Assembly (NCBI RefSeq): GCF_000429545.1
Contig: NZ_AUCB01000011.1
Span: 1 to 64,000 of the forward strand
Source of the DNA: Arenibacter certesii DSM 19833
Lineage (GTDB): Bacteria > Bacteroidota > Bacteroidia > Flavobacteriales > Flavobacteriaceae
Direction: 5' to 3'
Length of the DNA: 64,000 bases
Shown: positions 54,408 to 63,322 of the stretch, piece after piece
How the letters are laid out: every line of letters starts with the position of its first letter
Numbering within the stretch: the first letter of the stretch is position 1
Notes under the pieces: model-generated
What the model saw: the letters and a program-made list of their open reading frames with translations, nothing else
Databases searched by the model: none
What the model was told of the DNA's origin: nothing
Translations under genes and position numbers: made by a program

Positions 54408-54896
54408 TTGAATATTTCGGAAGAGAAAAAACAGCTTATAGAACAAATAGGTCTGGGCTTTGGGGATCGTATGGGGGTGTCCCCACTTGCAGCAAGAATT
54501 TATGGGCTTTTAACCCTTTCATCTTATGACGGCCTCACTTTTGAAGAGGTAAGGGAAGCATTGGGATCTAGTAAAAGTTCTACTTCCATTAACCTTAACG
54601 TCCTCACCCAACTTAATTTTGTTGAGTATTACACTAGACCGGGGGATAGAAAGCGATATTTTAAAGTATCTAAATCTTTTCAGAAGAAGTATTTAATGCA
54701 ATATGCACAGACTTTAAATAGCGAAGCGGAACTCATTTCCAAAATAAATGCCTACAATCTACAGCATTACCCAGAGAAGTTTGTAAATGAAAAGTCGATG
54801 GGTACCTTGATGGAAGAATACATCAAGGCCCAGCATGACCTAGTGGAAACTACATTGAAAAAAATGACTGCTCTTTTTGAAGATCAAAATCAGTAA
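54408..54896 (+). CDS. GbsR/MarR-type transcriptional regulator (copy 1)
   Basis: A 162-residue winged-HTH regulator starting at TTG 54408 (no ATG upstream). The GbsR-like pattern is clear: MGVSPLAARIYGLLTLSSYDGLTFEEV and SSKSSTSINLNVLTQLNFVEYYTRPGDRKRYF. It shares the architecture and about half its residues with copy 2 at 57044. No convincing operator precedes it; the next gene downstream (META) has one. It probably regulates efflux or membrane-stress genes in this block (inference). Confidence 0.85.
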   Translation: MNISEEKKQLIEQIGLGFGDRMGVSPLAARIYGLLTLSSYDGLTFEEVREALGSSKSSTSINLNVLTQLNFVEYYTRPGDRKRYFKVSKSFQKKYLMQYAQTLNSEAELISKINAYNLQHYPEKFVNEKSMGTLMEEYIKAQHDLVETTLKKMTALFEDQNQ

Positions 54897-54942
54897 CTCC
54901 CATTTATTGATAACTGAGATATTTAACAAAATCTTATCCTTA

Positions 54943-54966
54943 GAGGTTCTAATTGTTACGAACTAA
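54943..54966. promoter_or_regulatory. GbsR-type operator (copy B) before the META gene
   Basis: GTTC at 54946-54949 and GAAC at 54960-54963 are spaced by 10 bp, and the right arm TTACGAACTAA (54956-54966) is identical to that of copy A at 56991-57014. It ends 4 bp before the -7 box TACTTTTG. Confidence 0.7.
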
Positions 54967-54970
54967 AAGA

Positions 54971-54978
54971 TACTTTTG
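54971..54978 (+). promoter_or_regulatory. -7 box of the META-domain gene
   Basis: TACTTTTG matches TAnnTTTG and is 28 bp before the start codon at 55006. Confidence 0.6.
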
Positions 54979-55005
54979 TGCTTGTAAATTTAATTCATAA
55001 ATAAA

Positions 55006-55833
55006 ATGAAAATAAAATTGATTCCAATATTGCTGATTACCATCAGTGTTCTTAGTTGTAAGACTCAAAAAGTAAATACGGAAACCGCTCCAAATAAGGA
55101 AAGTGAAATGGAAGAACATTTAGGAATAACCAATACAGAATGGATTCTTACAGAACTAGAAGGGGAAAAAGTAGCTCTAGACCAAGCCCAAGATAGAAAT
55201 ATTAGATTTATACTGAACGCTGAGGATAATACCTTTAATGGTTTTTTCGGATGTAATTCTGGTTTTGGAAATTTTAGTTTAGAAGAAGGAAATAGGATTC
55301 GGTTTAGTCAAATTGGGGTAACCCGTATGGCCTGTCCTGAGGAGTCTATAAAGGAGTCTCAGGTATTGGAAGTATTTAATATTGCCGACAATTATACGTT
55401 AGATGGGAACACGCTTAGGTTAAATGTGGGTAGAAGGGCTCCCTTAGCCGTTTTTAAAAAGGCGGAAGTACAAAAGGACCTGATTACAGAAAAATATTGG
55501 AAATTGAAGACCTTAGAAGGGAAAGAAGTAAAAATGGCCGATAATCAAGAGGGTGAGATTTATTTTATTCTTAAGACAAATGAAAATAGGCTTACTGGAT
55601 TTGCTGGTTGTAATACATTTGGAGGAGGATATACTCTTGAAGAAGGGAATCGCATTAGGTTCTCTCAAGTATTCTCAACAATGAAGGCTTGTCTAGATGT
55701 TGATGTTGATGAAGCAGCATTTTTTAAAGTTTTTGAACTTACCGATAACTATACTATTGATGGAGATATTTTAATGTTTAATGTGGGACGAAGAGCTCCT
55801 TTGGCAGTTTTTGAGGCAGTTTATCTAGACTAA
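55006..55833 (+). CDS. Lipoprotein with two META (HslJ-like) domains
   Basis: A 275-residue predicted lipoprotein (lipobox SVLSC, C18). Two META domains repeat in tandem, about 37-150 and 155-272. Both share LEEGNRIRFSQ and NVGRRAPLAVF, and each has a GCN motif (FFGCNSG, FAGCNTF). META/HslJ proteins are linked to heat or drug tolerance, and their molecular role is not established. The close match of the repeats suggests a recent duplication. It is 110 bp downstream of gbsR copy 1. Confidence 0.85.
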   Translation: MKIKLIPILLITISVLSCKTQKVNTETAPNKESEMEEHLGITNTEWILTELEGEKVALDQAQDRNIRFILNAEDNTFNGFFGCNSGFGNFSLEEGNRIRFSQIGVTRMACPEESIKESQVLEVFNIADNYTLDGNTLRLNVGRRAPLAVFKKAEVQKDLITEKYWKLKTLEGKEVKMADNQEGEIYFILKTNENRLTGFAGCNTFGGGYTLEEGNRIRFSQVFSTMKACLDVDVDEAAFFKVFELTDNYTIDGDILMFNVGRRAPLAVFEAVYLD

Positions 55834-55904
55834 GGTTATACTTTATACTGCTTATAAACAGGAGGTTAAATTCCTGTCAAAATAATTAAAGGATAATATT
55901 TATT

Positions 55905-55937
55905 AAAAAGCAATTGCATGGTGCAATTGCTTTTTAA
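55905..55937 (+). terminator. Terminator of the META-domain gene
   Basis: AAAAAGCAATTGCA (55905-55918) pairs perfectly over 14 bp with TGCAATTGCTTTTT (55922-55935). It lies only ~14 bp before the start codon of the next gene. Confidence 0.88.
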
Positions 55938-55949
55938 CTTTACAGACCT

Positions 55950-56843
55950 ATGGGAAAATTAATTGAAAACAAATGGTTTCTCCTCCTCATTATTGCACTG
56001 ACCTGGGGTAGTTCTTTTATTCTGATCAAAAAATCCTTATTAGTGTTTACGCCATATGAAATTGGTGCTATCCGGGTAGGTGTTTCTGGCTTGTTAATGG
56101 CATATATTGGAATTCCCGCATTGCGGAAGATGTCTAAGAAAGTACTGTTTTGGGTTATACTGGCGGGATTTTTTGGAAACTTTTTCCCTATGTTTCTTTT
56201 TCCTTTGGCACAAACACAGGTTAGTAGTTCCCTTGCAGGAATTTTAGATTCACTAGTTCCCGTTTTTGTTCTGACATTCGGATTTTTGTTTTTTGGAATC
56301 CGTAGTAGATGGATTCAATTTATTGGAGCGATTATCGGTTTTATTGGGGCGGGAAGCCTAATGTACTTTTCGGAAGCAAACAGAGAGGAATCTCAACTAT
56401 TCTATGCCTTTTTAGTTGTTTTGGCTACTGCTTGTTACGCTGTTAATGCTCTTATCATTAAAGAAAAATTACAAGATATTCCTTCCTTGCAATTATCAAG
56501 TGCCGTATTCTCTGTATGGATGGTTCCGTCATTTATTATTCTAGTTTTATCTGGTTTTTTTCAAAACTTTGAAGCCAGCACCCCAACTTATGAAGCCTTG
56601 GGCTACCTTGGGATTCTAACGATTATGGGGACGGCTGTAGCCATGATTTTATATTACAAACTCATACAGAATACTTCGCCCGTATTTGCCAGCACCGTAA
56701 CCTATTTACTACCCTTAGTGGCAGTAATTTGGGGTTTGCTGGATGGTGAGCGCTTTACAATATGGTATATGGTGGGGGGAATCCTAATCCTGATTGGAAT
56801 CTATTTAATTGGAAAAAACAAGAAACCCAAACTTCTTTCATAA
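55950..56843 (+). CDS. EamA/DMT-family transporter
   Basis: A 297-residue membrane protein with ten helices in two EamA halves, e.g. LLIIALTWGSSFILIKKSLL at the start and YLGILTIMGTAVAMILYYKLIQNTSPVFAS in the second half. DMT transporters export metabolites or amino acids; the substrate is unknown. A terminator lies right before it, so its promoter is probably within the hairpin region or it depends on read-through. Confidence 0.85.
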   Translation: MGKLIENKWFLLLIIALTWGSSFILIKKSLLVFTPYEIGAIRVGVSGLLMAYIGIPALRKMSKKVLFWVILAGFFGNFFPMFLFPLAQTQVSSSLAGILDSLVPVFVLTFGFLFFGIRSRWIQFIGAIIGFIGAGSLMYFSEANREESQLFYAFLVVLATACYAVNALIIKEKLQDIPSLQLSSAVFSVWMVPSFIILVLSGFFQNFEASTPTYEALGYLGILTIMGTAVAMILYYKLIQNTSPVFASTVTYLLPLVAVIWGLLDGERFTIWYMVGGILILIGIYLIGKNKKPKLLS

Positions 56844-56990
56844 AATTAAATGCCCTCTATTTTAAGGGTTCACGGCACTCGTTTAATAGGGTTAACTAGC
56901 CAGTTTATTTTCTTCTTTGTAGTAGCTATCTAATGCTACTTGACCCTATTTTTATAACTAATTAAACTATTAACAAAAAATTATGTTCAA

Positions 56991-57014
56991 TTAGTTCGTA
57001 AGGTTACGAACTAA
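56991..57014. promoter_or_regulatory. GbsR-type operator (copy A) before the second gbsR gene
   Basis: The arms TTAGTTCGTAA (56991-57001) and TTACGAACTAA (57004-57014) form a perfect 11-bp inverted repeat with a 2-bp spacer. It lies 3 bp upstream of the -7 box TATTTTTG and 29 bp before the start of the regulator gene. Confidence 0.82.
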
Positions 57015-57017
57015 GTC

Positions 57018-57025
57018 TATTTTTG
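57018..57025 (+). promoter_or_regulatory. -7 box of the second gbsR gene / RND operon
   Basis: TATTTTTG matches TAnnTTTG. The operator lies directly upstream, in the spacer region between -33 and -7. Confidence 0.65.
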
Positions 57026-57043
57026 CAGTAAAATTTAGATGGT

Positions 57044-57532
57044 ATGTCAGATGTATTCCAAGAAAAAAAGGTTCTTATTGAAGAGATAGGACTTACTTTG
57101 GAGGAAAGGGCCGGTTTGGCCCCGTTAGCGGCACGTATATATGCCACATTAATACTTTCCTCTAATGCAGGCTTAACCTTTGATGAGATTATTGAGATAA
57201 CAGCAGCTTGTAAAAGCTCTGTTTCAAGTAACTTAAATGTTTTGTTGCAACTAGATTATGTGGAATTTTATACAAAAACTGGGGACAGAAAACGATACTT
57301 TAAAACTTCTCCGAATTTTGTAAAAAATGCGATGAGTCATTATGGAAGTTTACTTAAAAAGGAGTTGGAAGTCATTAATAAGGTAAGAACCTTCAATCAA
57401 TTAAACAATCCTGAAAAATATTATAGTGATAAGACAGTGGGGTTGATGTATCAAGAACACTTGATAGCGCAGTTGGAGTCTATCGATCAGAAAATTCAGG
57501 AAATCAGCGCCTTACAGAATCAATCTATATAA
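57044..57532 (+). CDS. GbsR/MarR-type transcriptional regulator (copy 2)
   Basis: A 162-residue regulator, paralogous to copy 1: AGLAPLAARIYATLILSSNAGLTFDEI and CKSSVSSNLNVLLQLDYVEFYTKTGDRKRYF. It starts the RND operon (84 bp before the adaptor) and is preceded by the perfect palindrome at 56991-57014, so it is likely an autoregulated repressor of the efflux genes (inference). The start is ATG 57044. Confidence 0.87.
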   Translation: MSDVFQEKKVLIEEIGLTLEERAGLAPLAARIYATLILSSNAGLTFDEIIEITAACKSSVSSNLNVLLQLDYVEFYTKTGDRKRYFKTSPNFVKNAMSHYGSLLKKELEVINKVRTFNQLNNPEKYYSDKTVGLMYQEHLIAQLESIDQKIQEISALQNQSI

Positions 57533-57615
57533 TTAATTATTGTATTCCATCACCGCAACAATTTCGCACTAAAATTTTATTGCTCATTTTAAACTAAGAA
57601 TAATTTACACAGCAC

Positions 57616-58743
57616 ATGAAAACAACTTTTAAAACCGCTATTCCCATTTTATTATTAACGATTTTAGCTTCTTGTGGAAGCGATAAATCGGAACAAAATA
57701 GTGCGCAGGCCAGGCCGGCACTTCCTTTTCCAGTAGTTCAGGTTCCTACCAAAACTGTAACTTCTTACACTACCTATCCTACTAACATAGAGGGAATAAT
57801 AAATAGTGAAGTCAGAGCCAAAATAACGGGATACATTACGGAGGTATTGGTTGATGAGGGTGAAAAGGTAAAAAAAGGTCAGCCTCTTTTTAGATTGGAA
57901 ACCCAATCCATGAGTCAGGATGCAGCAGCTGCAAAGGCTAATGTGGAGGCCGCTCAAGTTGAGGTAAATAAACTTAGGCCATTGGTAGAAAAGAATATTA
58001 TAAGTGAGGTCCAGTTAGAAACCGCGAAGGCGAAACTGCAACAGGCAAAGAGTGGATACAATAGTATTACAGCCAACATTGGATATGGTACTATTGTAAG
58101 TCCGGTAGATGGATATGTAGGATCAATACGCATGCGTACAGGGTCCTTGGTAAGTCCTACCAATCAGCATCCATTAACCACGGTTTCTAATATCAGTAAA
58201 GTTTATGCCTATTTTTCAATGAACGAGACTTCGTACTTAGACTTTTTGCAAAATGCCAAGGGTGCCAATAAGGAAGAAAGAATATCTAACTTCCCAGAAG
58301 TGACGCTTGTATTGAGCAATGGCAAGGAATTTGACCAGAAGGGAAAAATAGAAACAATTAATTCACAGGTAAACCCCAATACGGGAACGATTACTTTTAG
58401 AGCGGTATTCGACAATACAAGTGGTTTGTTGACCAATGGAAATAGTGGTACTATAAAAGTGCCTTCTGTTTTTGAGGATGTCCTTGTGATTCCACAAGAA
58501 GCAACTTTTGAGCAACAGGAAATGACTTTTGTCTATGTGTTATCCGAAGATAATACAGTAAGCTCTAAAGCCATAAGCATTAAAGGCAATGCCGATAGTA
58601 TGTACATTTTGGAGTCTGGATTGCAAGAAGGGGAAACCATCGTTGCCAAAGGTGTTGGAAAACTAAGAAATGGCACTCCTATTACGCCACAGAAGGTGAA
58701 ATTTGAAGAAGTGGCTCAACTTAGACAAACTGAGTTTCAATAA
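57616..58743 (+). CDS. RND efflux periplasmic adaptor
   Basis: A 375-residue membrane-fusion protein and lipoprotein (lipobox TILASC, C20). A biotinyl-lipoyl part (VDEGEKVKKGQPLFRLET) surrounds a short coiled-coil hairpin (AKANVEAAQVEVNKLRPLVEKN), then the lipoyl second half (YGTIVSPVDGYVGSI) and beta-barrel and membrane-proximal domains. It links the RND pump with the outer-membrane channel. The next gene follows by 24 bp. Confidence 0.93.
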   Translation: MKTTFKTAIPILLLTILASCGSDKSEQNSAQARPALPFPVVQVPTKTVTSYTTYPTNIEGIINSEVRAKITGYITEVLVDEGEKVKKGQPLFRLETQSMSQDAAAAKANVEAAQVEVNKLRPLVEKNIISEVQLETAKAKLQQAKSGYNSITANIGYGTIVSPVDGYVGSIRMRTGSLVSPTNQHPLTTVSNISKVYAYFSMNETSYLDFLQNAKGANKEERISNFPEVTLVLSNGKEFDQKGKIETINSQVNPNTGTITFRAVFDNTSGLLTNGNSGTIKVPSVFEDVLVIPQEATFEQQEMTFVYVLSEDNTVSSKAISIKGNADSMYILESGLQEGETIVAKGVGKLRNGTPITPQKVKFEEVAQLRQTEFQ

Positions 58744-58767
58744 TAATATAGGAAATACAAAGAAACC

Positions 58768-61700
58768 ATGATTAAGACTTTTATCACACGTCCCGTACTA
58801 TCTACGGTGATATCTATAATTATTGTGATTTTGGGAATATTAGGGTTGCAGTCCCTATCCGTAACCCAATATCCTGATATTGCCCCACCTACCATACAGG
58901 TAACGGCTAGTTACCCTGGAGCTTCGGCGGCAACCATATTAGAAAGTGTAATAATTCCTATAGAGGAACAGATCAACGGGGTAGAGGGGATGACCTATCT
59001 AACCTCTACTGCTACGAATAACGGTACTGCTGCTATTACTGTTTATTTTAAACAGGATGTAGATCCAGATATTGCAGCAGTAAACGTACAGAACCGTGTT
59101 GCACGGGCAAATCCAATGCTCCCCCAGGCTGTACGGCAAACAGGAGTACTTACCCAAAAGCAACAGACAAGTGCATTAATGTTTATTAGTTTTTATTCGG
59201 ATTCTGAAGATTACAATGATGTTTTTCTACAGAATTATCTAAAAATTAATGTAGTACCAGCTTTTCAACGTGTTGAAGGGGTAGGAGACGTAAATGTTTT
59301 TGGAAGTAAGGATTATGCCATGCGAGTTTGGTTACAGCCCAATAAAATGGCAGCATATGGACTATCACCTTCCGATGTTACAGCGGCGATAAATGAGCAG
59401 AGTCAGGAAGCTGCAGCAGGAACTATTGGTGAAAATCATGGCGAGGCTTTTTCCTATGTAATTACCTATGACGGTCGTTATCGTACCGAAGAGCAATATG
59501 GAAATATTGTGATTAAAGCCTTAGGTGATGGGGAGTACCTGAGATTAAAAGATGTAGCTACAATTGAATTGGATGCGCAATCTTATGCTAGTAGCGCCAA
59601 AACAGATGGTAAGCCCAGTGTTGCTATGGCCATCTATCAGACACCAGGATCCGATGCTCAGAAAATTATTGAGGAGATTAAAACAGAATTGGCTAGCTTA
59701 GAAAAAGGCTTTCCAGAGGGTATTAGCTATGTAATCCCTTATGATACTAATGAGTTTTTGAACGCTTCCGTAAATAAGGTGGTGAAGACGTTTATAGAGG
59801 CCTTTTTACTTGTTTTTTTGGTGGTCTTTATTTTCTTACAGGATTTTAGATCTACTTTAATTCCGGCTATAGCCGTGCCAGTATCCATTATTGGAACCTT
59901 CTTTTTCTTAAATCTTTTTGGATATTCCATTAACCTGTTAACGCTTTTTGCCTTATTGCTGGCTATTGGGATTGTGGTGGATGATGCCATTGTAGTAGTA
60001 GAGGCTGTCCACGCCAAGATAGACGAGGGAGCCAAGGATATGGAAAAAGCTACTATTGAGGCAATGGAAGAAATTACCGGAGCAATTATTTCAATTACTT
60101 TAGTAATGGCTGCGGTTTTTGTACCAGTAACGTTTATTACCGGTCCTACCGGAGTATTCTATGAGCAATTTGGGATAACGCTTATTGTAGCGATATTGAT
60201 TTCTGCTGTGAATGCCCTTACTTTAAGTCCGGCTTTATGTGCTATCCTTTTAAAACCTCATAATGAGGAAGAAAAGAAGAAAACATTTTTACAGCGCTTT
60301 TTCCATGCTTTTAACGTAGGGTTTAATGCCACTGTAAGACGTTATGGGAAATCACTTGGATTTTTGTACCGTCATAAGTGGATTACTGGGGCTATTCTTA
60401 TCGTTTCTATTGCAGGAATTGTTTGGGCTTCCAATACCACCCCATCCGGATTTGTACCTGATGAAGATAGAGGATTGGTCTTTGTAAACGTAGAATTACC
60501 ACCAGGAGCATCTATTGATAGAACGGCGGAAGTAAACCGTGAAATATATAGTAAAGTTAAAGATTTACCAGGCGTAAAAAGTGTTACCCTTATTAACGGG
60601 ATAAGTATTATTAATGGAGCGGGAAACAACTACGGTTTAGGGTTTATTAAACTAGATGATTGGAAAGACCGTGAAACCGATGACCTTTCTACCAAAGCAA
60701 TTACGGGGAAATTATTTGGTATTGTAGCAACTGTTTCTGATGCCAATATTATTTTCTTTGCACCTCCAAGTATTCCAGGTTTTGGAAACTCATCGGGAGT
60801 GGAAGTGAATCTTTTAGATCAATCTGGAGGCGATTTTAGTGAATTAGATCGGGTGAATAAGGAATTTATAGGGAAGCTGATGCAAAGGCCAGAACTTATG
60901 TATGCCCAGTCTTCTTTTAGTACTGAATATCCACAGTATAAATTAGATATCAACGTTCCTTTAGCAAAAGATTATGGAGTGAATATCAACAGTATATTCA
61001 ATACACTCCAGGGGTATATTGGCAGTATTTATGCTGCAGATTTCTCTAGATTTGGAAAGCAGTATAGGGTTTATATTCAGTCTTTACCAGAAAGCAGAGC
61101 CGAAAAGCAAGATTTAAACAGTCTATATGTAAAGACTAAAAGTGGGGAGATGGCACCTATTACTCAATTTGTCAAAATAGAGCGTGTATTTGGACCACAA
61201 TCAGTAACAAGGTTTAATCTGTTTAACTCAACTAAAGTTACCGCAGCGGTAAATCCTGGATTTAGTACTGGAGATGCAATTACGGCAGTTGAAGAAGTCA
61301 GTGCAGAGTTACCAGCAAACTTTAGTACGGCGTATTCTGGACTTACTAGGGAAGAGATTAATGCGGGTGACCAAACTACTGTTATCTTAATTTTGGTAAT
61401 TGTGTTTGTGTACTTTTTATTAAGTGCCCAGTATGAGAGTTATTTATTACCATTTGCCGTTTTGTTTTCACTGCCATTGGGGATTTTTGGAGCTTTTATC
61501 TCCACAAAATTTGCAGGCTTGGAAAACAACATCTATTTCCAGATTGCCTTAATAATGTTAATCGGGCTGTTGGCAAAGAATGCAATTTTGATAGTGGAGT
61601 TTGCCATACAAAGAAGAAAGAGGGGAGAAACCATATTTAATGCAGCAATTGACGGAGCAAAGGCTAGGTTACGACCTATTTTAATGACCTCTTTTGCCTT

Positions 61701-61911
61701 TATATTTGGTCTATTGCCTCTGGTTTTGGCCTCTGGAGTTGGAGCCGAGGGGAACCGTGCCATTGGTACTGGAGCAGTTGGAGGGTTATTAATAGGAACT
61801 ATTTTAGGGGTTTTTGTAATTCCGATCCTTTATATCTTGTTCCAGTGGCTAGATGAAAAGGTAAGCCGAAAACCAAAAAAACAGAATTTAGAAATTTCAG
61901 AAGAAGTATAA
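58768..61911 (+). CDS. RND efflux pump permease (AcrB/HAE1 type)
   Basis: A 1047-residue inner-membrane pump of the hydrophobe/amphiphile efflux type. It begins with TRPVLSTVISIIIVILGILGL and has the proton-relay motif GIVVDDAIVVVEAV in helix 4, ETRGA-like loops in the periplasmic porter domains, and the second TM block ending GGLLIGTILGVFVIPILYIL. Twelve helices in two groups of six are evident. The proton/drug antiport substrates are unknown. The outer-membrane gene follows by 4 bp. Confidence 0.95.
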   Translation: MIKTFITRPVLSTVISIIIVILGILGLQSLSVTQYPDIAPPTIQVTASYPGASAATILESVIIPIEEQINGVEGMTYLTSTATNNGTAAITVYFKQDVDPDIAAVNVQNRVARANPMLPQAVRQTGVLTQKQQTSALMFISFYSDSEDYNDVFLQNYLKINVVPAFQRVEGVGDVNVFGSKDYAMRVWLQPNKMAAYGLSPSDVTAAINEQSQEAAAGTIGENHGEAFSYVITYDGRYRTEEQYGNIVIKALGDGEYLRLKDVATIELDAQSYASSAKTDGKPSVAMAIYQTPGSDAQKIIEEIKTELASLEKGFPEGISYVIPYDTNEFLNASVNKVVKTFIEAFLLVFLVVFIFLQDFRSTLIPAIAVPVSIIGTFFFLNLFGYSINLLTLFALLLAIGIVVDDAIVVVEAVHAKIDEGAKDMEKATIEAMEEITGAIISITLVMAAVFVPVTFITGPTGVFYEQFGITLIVAILISAVNALTLSPALCAILLKPHNEEEKKKTFLQRFFHAFNVGFNATVRRYGKSLGFLYRHKWITGAILIVSIAGIVWASNTTPSGFVPDEDRGLVFVNVELPPGASIDRTAEVNREIYSKVKDLPGVKSVTLINGISIINGAGNNYGLGFIKLDDWKDRETDDLSTKAITGKLFGIVATVSDANIIFFAPPSIPGFGNSSGVEVNLLDQSGGDFSELDRVNKEFIGKLMQRPELMYAQSSFSTEYPQYKLDINVPLAKDYGVNINSIFNTLQGYIGSIYAADFSRFGKQYRVYIQSLPESRAEKQDLNSLYVKTKSGEMAPITQFVKIERVFGPQSVTRFNLFNSTKVTAAVNPGFSTGDAITAVEEVSAELPANFSTAYSGLTREEINAGDQTTVILILVIVFVYFLLSAQYESYLLPFAVLFSLPLGIFGAFISTKFAGLENNIYFQIALIMLIGLLAKNAILIVEFAIQRRKRGETIFNAAIDGAKARLRPILMTSFAFIFGLLPLVLASGVGAEGNRAIGTGAVGGLLIGTILGVFVIPILYILFQWLDEKVSRKPKKQNLEISEEV

Positions 61912-61915
61912 TACT

Positions 61916-63322
61916 ATGAAATCAGCACGATTAACGAAATATATAATTATTGCCAGTATGCCGGTACTATTGGTATCCTGCTTTTCGGCAAAGGAATATG
62001 TACAGTCAGATCAGGCCGTTATTGAGGACAGAGCCTTTAGGACGGATCAACTTTCACAAGACAGTCTTACCGTGGCAGCGGTTTCTTGGAGAACGCTTTT
62101 TACCGATCCTATTCTTACCCAATATATAGAGCAAGGACTAGACAATAATATGGATATAAGGGTAGCCTTGCAGCAGATAGTTGCTGCAGAGGCATACCTT
62201 AAGCAAGGAAAAGCGGGATACTATCCTACATTTTCGGCTAATGGGCGATATACACATCAAGAATTGTCCAAAAATAGCCCTATGGGTGCTCTTGTAGGTA
62301 GTTCTCAAGATCAATTCGAACTTACAGGAAGCTTGGCATGGGAAGCAGATATTTGGGGGAAAATCCGTAGTAATAAGAGGGCTTCTGAAGCTTCTTATTT
62401 ACAAACGGTAGCCGCTCATCATGCTGTAAAGTCAAGACTAATTGCCAATATAGCATCGGTATACTACCAACTATTGACCGTAGATGAGCAAATTTCTATT
62501 ACGAAAGAAACCATTGCCACTCGAGAAAATAGTTTAGAAACCTCCAAAGCATTGAAGGAAGCAGGGGGTATAACCCAAGTTGCTGTAAAACAGACCGAGG
62601 CACAGCTCCATACGGCTGAAGCAATATTGGTAGACCTCAATAACCAAGCGTACTTATTGGAAAACACCCTATCCGTGCTATTAGGGGAAATGCCGAAAGC
62701 CAGGGAAAGAACCGTTTTGGATAATCAAAAGATTTCTACAGAATTGGTAGTTGGGGTGCCTATGCAGCTATTGAGCAATCGTCCAGATGTCATGGTAGCG
62801 GAATTAGAATTAAGAAAAGCATTTGAGCTTACTAATGTAGCTCGTAGTAGTTTTTATCCTTCTCTGACCCTTTCGGCAACAGGAGGTTACCAAAGTCTGG
62901 ATATTGATCAATTGTTCAGTGCTAATTCGCTTTTTGCCAATCTCGTAGGGGGACTTGCGCAACCCATATTGAATGGACGAAAGATCCGAACCCAATACGA
63001 AGTATCCAAAGCACAGCAGGAAATGGCTAGTTTAAACTTTAAACAATCCGTATTAACTGCAAGCAAGGAAGTTTCGGATGCCGTATATTCCTTTGGAACG
63101 GCTACCGAAAAAATAGCGATAAAAGAAAAGGAATACGAAGCCTATGCCTTGGCTACGGAGTATTCTCAAGAATTGTTAAACAACGGACTAGCAAACTATT
63201 TAGAGGTATTACGAGCTCAGGAAAATGCACTAAATTCTAGTCTAGATCTAGCAAATGCTAAAAATAGACAATTGCAATCTGTTGTAGATTTATATGAAGC
63301 ATTAGGGGGCGGATGGAATTAA
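61916..63322 (+). CDS. NodT-type outer-membrane efflux channel
   Basis: A 468-residue TolC-like lipoprotein (VLLVSC, C22). It has repeated outer-membrane factor motifs: VSWRTLFTDPILTQYIEQGLDNNMDIRVALQQI near the start and LSNRPDVMVAELELRKAF, then the C-terminal LANYLEVLRAQENAL. It completes the tripartite pump with the adaptor and permease upstream. Confidence 0.93.
   Translation: MKSARLTKYIIIASMPVLLVSCFSAKEYVQSDQAVIEDRAFRTDQLSQDSLTVAAVSWRTLFTDPILTQYIEQGLDNNMDIRVALQQIVAAEAYLKQGKAGYYPTFSANGRYTHQELSKNSPMGALVGSSQDQFELTGSLAWEADIWGKIRSNKRASEASYLQTVAAHHAVKSRLIANIASVYYQLLTVDEQISITKETIATRENSLETSKALKEAGGITQVAVKQTEAQLHTAEAILVDLNNQAYLLENTLSVLLGEMPKARERTVLDNQKISTELVVGVPMQLLSNRPDVMVAELELRKAFELTNVARSSFYPSLTLSATGGYQSLDIDQLFSANSLFANLVGGLAQPILNGRKIRTQYEVSKAQQEMASLNFKQSVLTASKEVSDAVYSFGTATEKIAIKEKEYEAYALATEYSQELLNNGLANYLEVLRAQENALNSSLDLANAKNRQLQSVVDLYEALGGGWN

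Follow-up and report, generated by a model that had tools for sequence, protein, structure and literature searches.

The mirror-image sequence that precedes the genes for a META-domain lipoprotein and an RND efflux system in Arenibacter certesii DSM 19833 very probably serves a small family of repressors as their shared binding site. More exactly, we consider TTRGTTCG-N8-CGAACYAA to be, with a probability of roughly 87 %, an operator of GbsR/MarR-type repressors that lies over the core promoter in an efflux and envelope regulon. The sites stand directly ahead of the −7 box, are conserved between genera and are nearly restricted to gbsR-RND, META and DUF308 genes. One operator type and one neighbourhood, RND efflux, recur in tens of genera and provide a directly testable candidate binding site. 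Used as a search key, the operator puts META/HslJ-like and DUF308 proteins, both poorly understood, into an efflux regulon, and it brings out paralogous GbsR systems with different operator letters within one cell.

Organisation of the locus

We analysed a stretch of 64,000 nucleotides (the window) from a draft genome of 4.99 Mb. The locus carries, all on the + strand, gbsR1, site A, the META lipoprotein gene, an EamA exporter gene, site B, gbsR2 and the genes for the RND adaptor, permease and outer-membrane factor (Table 1). The consensus of the −7 box, TAnnTTTG, is the one reported for a flavobacterium (PMC9723704).

Table 1. Genes, candidate operators and other features of the locus (54408-63322 of the window).
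Feature	Position	Strand	Basis
gbsR1, MarR/GbsR-type regulator	54408..54896	+	ORF; MarR_2 27.3 bits, cut-off 27; weak CudC match
Site A, weaker candidate operator	54943..54966	+	core GTTC-N10-GAAC at 54946-54963
−7 box TACTTTTG of META gene	54971..54978	+	matches consensus TAnnTTTG
META-domain lipoprotein, HslJ-like, two META stretches	55006..55833	+	PF03724 145 bits, cut-off 24
Terminator-like hairpin with T run 3′ of META	55906..55934		present in 4/4 genomes examined
EamA-family exporter	55950..56843	+	PF00892
Site B, perfect 11-bp palindromic candidate operator	56991..57014	+	sequence and genome scan
−7 box TATTTTTG of gbsR2-RND	57018..57025	+	matches consensus TAnnTTTG
gbsR2, GbsR/MarR-type regulator	57044..57532	+	ORF; CudC 40.3 bits, cut-off 218; MJ223-like model
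RND periplasmic adaptor	57616..58743	+	TIGR01730 228 bits, cut-off 94.9
RND permease	58768..61911	+	TIGR00915 1115 bits, cut-off 940
RND outer-membrane factor	61916..63322	+	TIGR01845 300 bits, cut-off 210

The start codon of gbsR1 is apparently TTG (54408), and the same TTG is found in the genomes G001, G004 and G010. The META lipoprotein scored 35.7 bits against the HslJ model, under its cut-off of 168. Immediately 5′ of the EamA start lies a strong hairpin, AAAAGCAATTGC...GCAATTGCTTTT, whose sequence hardly varies across the four same-genus genomes examined. As this terminator-like hairpin separates META from EamA, it is doubtful that the two form a simple operon. The scan of the window returned no GTTC-N10-GAAC directly 5′ of the EamA gene. 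In several genomes the position 3′ of META, or of a META-DUF308 pair, is taken by what looks by eye like a short-chain dehydrogenase gene (loci L051, L053, L225, L177 and L206), where the window has EamA.

Sites A and B

Site B reads TTAGTTCGTAA-GG-TTACGAACTAA, two 11-bp arms that mirror each other without a mismatch across a spacer of 2 bp, and ends 3 bp before the −7 box of gbsR2 (ATG at 57044). Site A has the core GTTCTAATTGTTACGAAC (54946-54963), followed by TAA. The 12-bp right arm GTTACGAACTAA is identical in both sites, and the −7 box of META (ATG at 55006) begins 4 bp past that of site A. The sequence bears out both descriptions in the earlier note, which had reported a perfect 11-bp inverted repeat 3 bp 5′ of the −7 box of gbsR2 and a weaker copy with an identical right arm 4 bp 5′ of that of META.

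Site B exceeds chance. The note had proposed scanning the genome for the arms, and a search for the 24-bp palindrome with up to three mismatches found, in all 4.99 Mb, just site B and a second place before a DUF308 gene, against none for the reversed control. Within the window, perfect 11-bp repeats with spacers of 0-8 gave 11 overlapping matches, which are site B and four other clusters, compared with 0-2 matches in Markov samples (n=20); one of the other repeats is a terminator-like hairpin. The motif GTTC-N10-GAAC has two matches in the window where 0.47 are expected, and 9 out of 100 shuffles also get to two. The 18-bp core with up to three mismatches likewise has two matches there (3 out of 100 shuffles); genome-wide it gave 17 places against 35 for the reversed control and is uninformative at this looseness. 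Site A is too degenerate for the 24-bp palindrome scan with up to three mismatches. By itself it is weak and within chance expectation, and since matches of its quality are expected by chance, we judged it as a candidate operator by its conservation.

Conservation in the genus and a third target

The gbsR1/gbsR2 pair is present in 6 of 18 same-genus genomes, the genome under study included; the gbsR2 homologue of the same-genus genome G001 matches at 86 %. In the six pair-carrying genomes GTTC-N10-GAAC precedes gbsR2 in 6/6 and META in 6/6, and every one of these META promoters has the site at the same place as site A. The motif is thus not absent from orthologous promoters, an outcome that the earlier note had named as speaking against its proposal, and META or DUF308 genes in other genera are also preceded by it. 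The 24-bp palindrome with up to three mismatches was found in exactly the six pair-carrying genomes, at 11 places (six before gbsR2, two before META, three before the DUF308 gene), and nowhere in the other 12; its reversed control gave 0 in all 18. Combined with the −7 box (GTTC-N10-GAAC-N5-9-TAnnTTTG), the motif occurs at 29 places in 16 of the 18 genomes, against 6 for the reversed control. When the loci were read, these places fell before gbsR2 (6), META (6), DUF308 genes (2) and other gbsR genes (14), with a single one (G006:C34:155008-155040, L106) that is the only same-genus match without a recognisable target gene. The own promoter of gbsR1 holds no GTTC-N10-GAAC in any of the six genomes (0/6).

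The palindrome outside the window (G000:C5:103096-103119; positions 1501-1524 of locus L002) precedes a gene for a 213-aa protein, which starts about 190 bases downstream of its −7 box and has, judged by eye, dctA-like and agcS-like neighbours. The product matches Pfam DUF308, and we take it to be 'HdeD-like'. Close orthologues (83-100 %) were found in only three of the 18 same-genus genomes, the three in which the palindrome precedes this gene; two others have homologues at 29-30 %. As this DUF308 gene carries the palindrome in the genome under study, the predicted regulon is broader than the gbsR2-RND and META genes given in the earlier note.

The regulators

At E 0.01 the profile search returned two matches only, 4nb5 (2e-09) and 1ku9/MJ223 (2.2e-07). 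The AlphaFold model of GbsR2 (mean pLDDT 91) shows a winged-helix MarR-type fold with long C-terminal helices, the MJ223-like build by which GbsR proteins are recognised. Compared with the PDB, the model had its lowest E-value with 1ku9 (3.9e-08, TM 0.57-0.61) and a higher TM (0.73-0.82) with 5jbr, an uncharacterised protein, while the MexR structure 1lnw was a weak fold match only (E 2.8e-03). The gbsR2 product had no Pfam match at E 0.001. The two paralogs scored 46.7 and 40.3 bits against the CudC model NF047500, whose cut-off of 218 they do not reach, so we name them GbsR-type and not GbsR or CudC orthologues.

The name GbsR might suggest control by choline or glycine betaine, but the neighbours do not fit. 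They are RND, META, EamA and a GreA-like gene; genes for glycine betaine synthesis or Opu uptake, which accompany the osmostress GbsR subgroup, are not among them, and the ExaC-like aldehyde dehydrogenase encoded some 1 kb 5′ of gbsR1 stays under the BADH and ExaC cut-offs. The aromatic cage for choline is reported to be absent from the non-osmostress GbsR-type proteins (PMC6207618).

A maximum-likelihood tree of 128 GbsR homologues, rooted at the midpoint, places all eight META-adjacent proteins in a clade of 12 (100/99; the GbsR1 side). Its sister clade of 10 (99/86) contains the six same-genus GbsR2 proteins. Proteins from other genera occur in each clade, and the node uniting the two is supported at 100/99. 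The genome also encodes a third GbsR paralog (G000:C2:174030-174560, L062), which has a site of its own, GTTCTCTTTATTCAGAAC. It is followed by a separate RND adaptor gene, whose identity to the adaptor of the window is 53 %.

Which regulator acts at which promoter

The earlier note had linked the META lipoprotein to RND efflux and had placed both promoters under one repressor. The link is strongly supported, with the site at both promoters in 6/6 pair-carrying same-genus genomes and before META or DUF308 genes of other genera. The claim of a single repressor has to be limited, because two GbsR paralogs are encoded here, members of sister clades, with GbsR1 beside META and GbsR2 beside the pump.

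META homologues occur at 19 places in 16 of the 397 family genomes. Seven of the places have the site, one has a near-site with a changed arm (G133:C29) and 11 have none; the site of G120, hidden in this survey by an overlong start call, was counted from the site reading. Every genome with an exact site at META also has a protein of the GbsR1/GbsR2 lineage. Two of the 11 siteless places lie in genomes with a lineage regulator (G335:C44 and G259), and in G335 it is the second of two META genes that has no site. In G259 (L079) a regulator of the GbsR2 lineage and a META-DUF308 pair are present, yet the motif with −7 box is found nowhere in the genome. A META homologue of the same-genus genome G015 (53 % over part of its length) also has no site.

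Wherever META adjoins a gbsR1-type gene, the site lies in between, directly 3′ of the regulator gene (8/8 neighbourhoods), which favours GbsR1 as the protein acting at META. Control may therefore be separate, which we hold to be possible at a little below even odds: GbsR1 would act on META and perhaps on DUF308, GbsR2 on gbsR2-RND only, and the sites would be alike by descent of the paralogs. Such an arrangement is compatible with the proposed operator and contrary to the claim of one repressor. The META site of G345, which is closer in sequence to the gbsR1 site than to that of the RND genes, points the same way, as do the same-genus META sites, which are less symmetric than the gbsR2 sites. 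Against it stands G249: its genome has one strong lineage GbsR (E 1.5e-6 for the second match), and gbsR2-RND and META, separated by 18 kb, each carry a site. This suggests that one repressor can serve both promoters, although the two sites of G249 differ in their inner bases, and this counts against it.

The inner bases were compared with the GTTC/GAAC letters fixed by the search and the META site of G318 left out. The inner tetramer GTAA is found in 6/12 gbsR2 arms (same-genus sites), 9/20 META arms and 4/8 DUF308 arms, or 19/40 overall, versus 6/200 arms of other gbsR own sites, which include a few lineage members from other genera and in which GGTT (65) and GGAA (48) are commonest. At gbsR2 of G120 and G249, which also belong to the lineage, the site is not of the GTAA type. 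In the genome under study, gbsR2 shares the GTAA half-site with META and DUF308, which argues against separate control; judged by these letters, the three sites seem to form a single specificity class, distinct from that of the third system. When protein positions were searched for co-variation with these inner bases, the highest-ranking ones lay outside the recognition helix, and no position within that helix stood out as accounting for the bases.

Alongside the separate control set out above, we tentatively consider joint control by the two paralogs, to which we give somewhat less than an even chance. Here two GbsR repressors that diverged before several of the genera did might run an envelope-defence regulon of Flavobacteriaceae together, both paralogs reading the same GTAA-type operator in the genome under study and META and DUF308 serving as partners of efflux. 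The regulon would then comprise tripartite RND efflux, META and DUF308, conceivably joined in some genera by an MFS-like transporter or another lipoprotein. In this reading the operator would be insulated from that of the third GbsR-RND system of the cell, and the paralogs might cross-regulate or form heterodimers.

Distribution and position of the operator in the family

We collected 62 distinct gbsR homologues by protein, leaving out ORFs of <130 aa and identical genes. GTTC-N10-GAAC lies within 300 bp upstream of 44 of them; these are related proteins and not independent, and the controls used identical sequences. In the same 62 upstream stretches other spacings from 2 to 21 gave 0-6 matches, and tests with eight other 4-mer pairs gave 0-1. 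In 42 of the 44 the distance from GAAC to the start of a TAnnTTTG box is 5-9 bp, in most cases 6 or 7, where about 0.7 are expected from the frequency of TAnnTTTG in these stretches. The 18 homologues without an upstream site comprise five same-genus gbsR1 genes, five with the site between gbsR and adaptor, one with an overlong start call and seven with no site at gbsR, although one of the seven (G027) has a site at a greater distance 5′, in front of a different ORF.

The tree set of 128 loci (ORFs of 130-259 aa, proteins sharing their last 100 residues merged) is biased, as it includes loci found by the motif; 106 of these loci have an own site. In 100/106 own sites, again partly chosen by motif, the end of GAAC is 6-7 bp from the −7 box, so the site would cover the upstream part of the core promoter. 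A dimer bound there would hinder the polymerase, which makes it unlikely that the GbsR proteins act as activators or mixed regulators from GTTC-N10-GAAC. This alternative draws on the fact that we infer repression at the site. Against it, the GbsR-type proteins described in PMC7396694, PMC6207618 and PMC6096048 are repressors.

The strict motif with −7 box was found at 84 places in the 397 family genomes, against 1 for the reversed control. They are spread over 79 genomes and 57 of 237 genera. Leaving out site B, which was not re-read, and one of an identical pair (G114/G324), and adding one site of G006, we had 83 distinct sites to read. Directly after the site comes a gbsR homologue in 77/83, and 75 of these 77 have an RND adaptor match next. 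The other six, from five genera, stand before META (G335, G345, G249 and G120) or before DUF308 (the genome under study and G335); in G120 the site-bearing META is followed by a DUF308 gene. No other gene type was found behind a strict site among the 83 read. With this company and spread, it is highly improbable that some other transcription factor, encoded elsewhere, recognises the palindrome. Nothing points to such a factor directly; the nearest case is G133:C29 (L269), where a decayed-looking site precedes META in a genome without a GbsR match at E 1e-25. That the palindrome arose by chance or is a terminator-type hairpin, as the weakness of site A alone and the other perfect repeats of the window might suggest, has next to no plausibility given its position before the −7 box and its recurrence in tens of genera.

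Proposed mechanism and relation to known systems

In the repressor reading, dimers of the GbsR1/GbsR2 lineage would occupy TTRGTTCG-N8-CGAACYAA, immediately 5′ of the TAnnTTTG box, and stand in the way of RNA polymerase. The gbsR2-RND genes, the META lipoprotein gene and the DUF308 gene would stay silent until the repressor is freed by a ligand, which is probably a toxic or membrane-active compound that the pump exports. The gbsR2-RND genes would be self-repressed, and META, beside gbsR1, would be derepressed by that signal or a related one. META and DUF308 proteins may then act as helpers in the envelope. Steric repression is the natural reading by analogy with OpcR of Bacillus, unlike the roadblock of GbsR.

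The Bacillus proteins GbsR, OpcR and OpuAR (PMC7396694, PMC6207618) are similar in being MarR-type proteins modelled on MJ223 with an inverted-repeat operator near the promoter. The GbsR operator of Bacillus is reported to be A/T-rich, with half-sites 4 bp apart, and to lie downstream of the transcription start as a roadblock, the OpcR site overlaps the −35 region, and the targets are osmoprotectant genes (PMC7396694). In Arenibacter, on the other hand, GTTC-N10-GAAC lies upstream of the −7 box and would control genes for efflux and the envelope. Another GbsR-type repressor that binds in its own promoter region is CydE of Alishewanella (PMC6096048), but it has two footprinted sites without GTTC-N10-GAAC, controls cytochrome bd and is derepressed by sulfate. 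Osmoprotectant genes and cytochrome bd are known targets of GbsR-type proteins (PMC6207618, PMC6096048), and a 2018 survey had no consistent picture of the process controlled by the members from Bacteroidetes (PMC6207618). The HslJ protein of Acinetobacter (PMC11724541) is a periplasmic stress protein of a similar kind, whose mutant is reported to have a changed surface hydrophobicity; it is under OxyR control, whereas META in Arenibacter stands behind a GbsR-type candidate operator together with RND efflux.

Our search of the open-access literature, mostly judged by title and abstract and with most subscription papers outside its scope, found no published report of this operator or regulon.

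MarR-family proteins such as MexR are local repressors of RND pumps, with the gene beside the pump genes and the operator over the pump promoter. The same arrangement is found here, a MarR-type gene that adjoins pump genes whose promoter is overlaid by an operator-like site, and differs from the MexR type in the GbsR-type subfamily, the TAnnTTTG promoter, the META and DUF308 targets and the pair of paralogs. On sequence grounds, we rate the system as a local MarR-type pump repressor with its own operator class and an unusual envelope regulon.

Further sites

A looser scan of eight genomes returned 18 places, with 4 in the controls. It added a single-domain META gene in G318, an ORF that looks MFS-like by eye in G281 near a gbsR1-type gene, with a similar case in G027, and a gene for a 131-aa protein in G120, by eye a lipoprotein. 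One subgroup of GbsR loci (L055, L060, L097, L098 and L099) has GTTC-N10-GAAC between gbsR and the RND adaptor gene, which suggests a separate promoter for the pump. In L057 and L059, a second copy of the site lies between these two genes.
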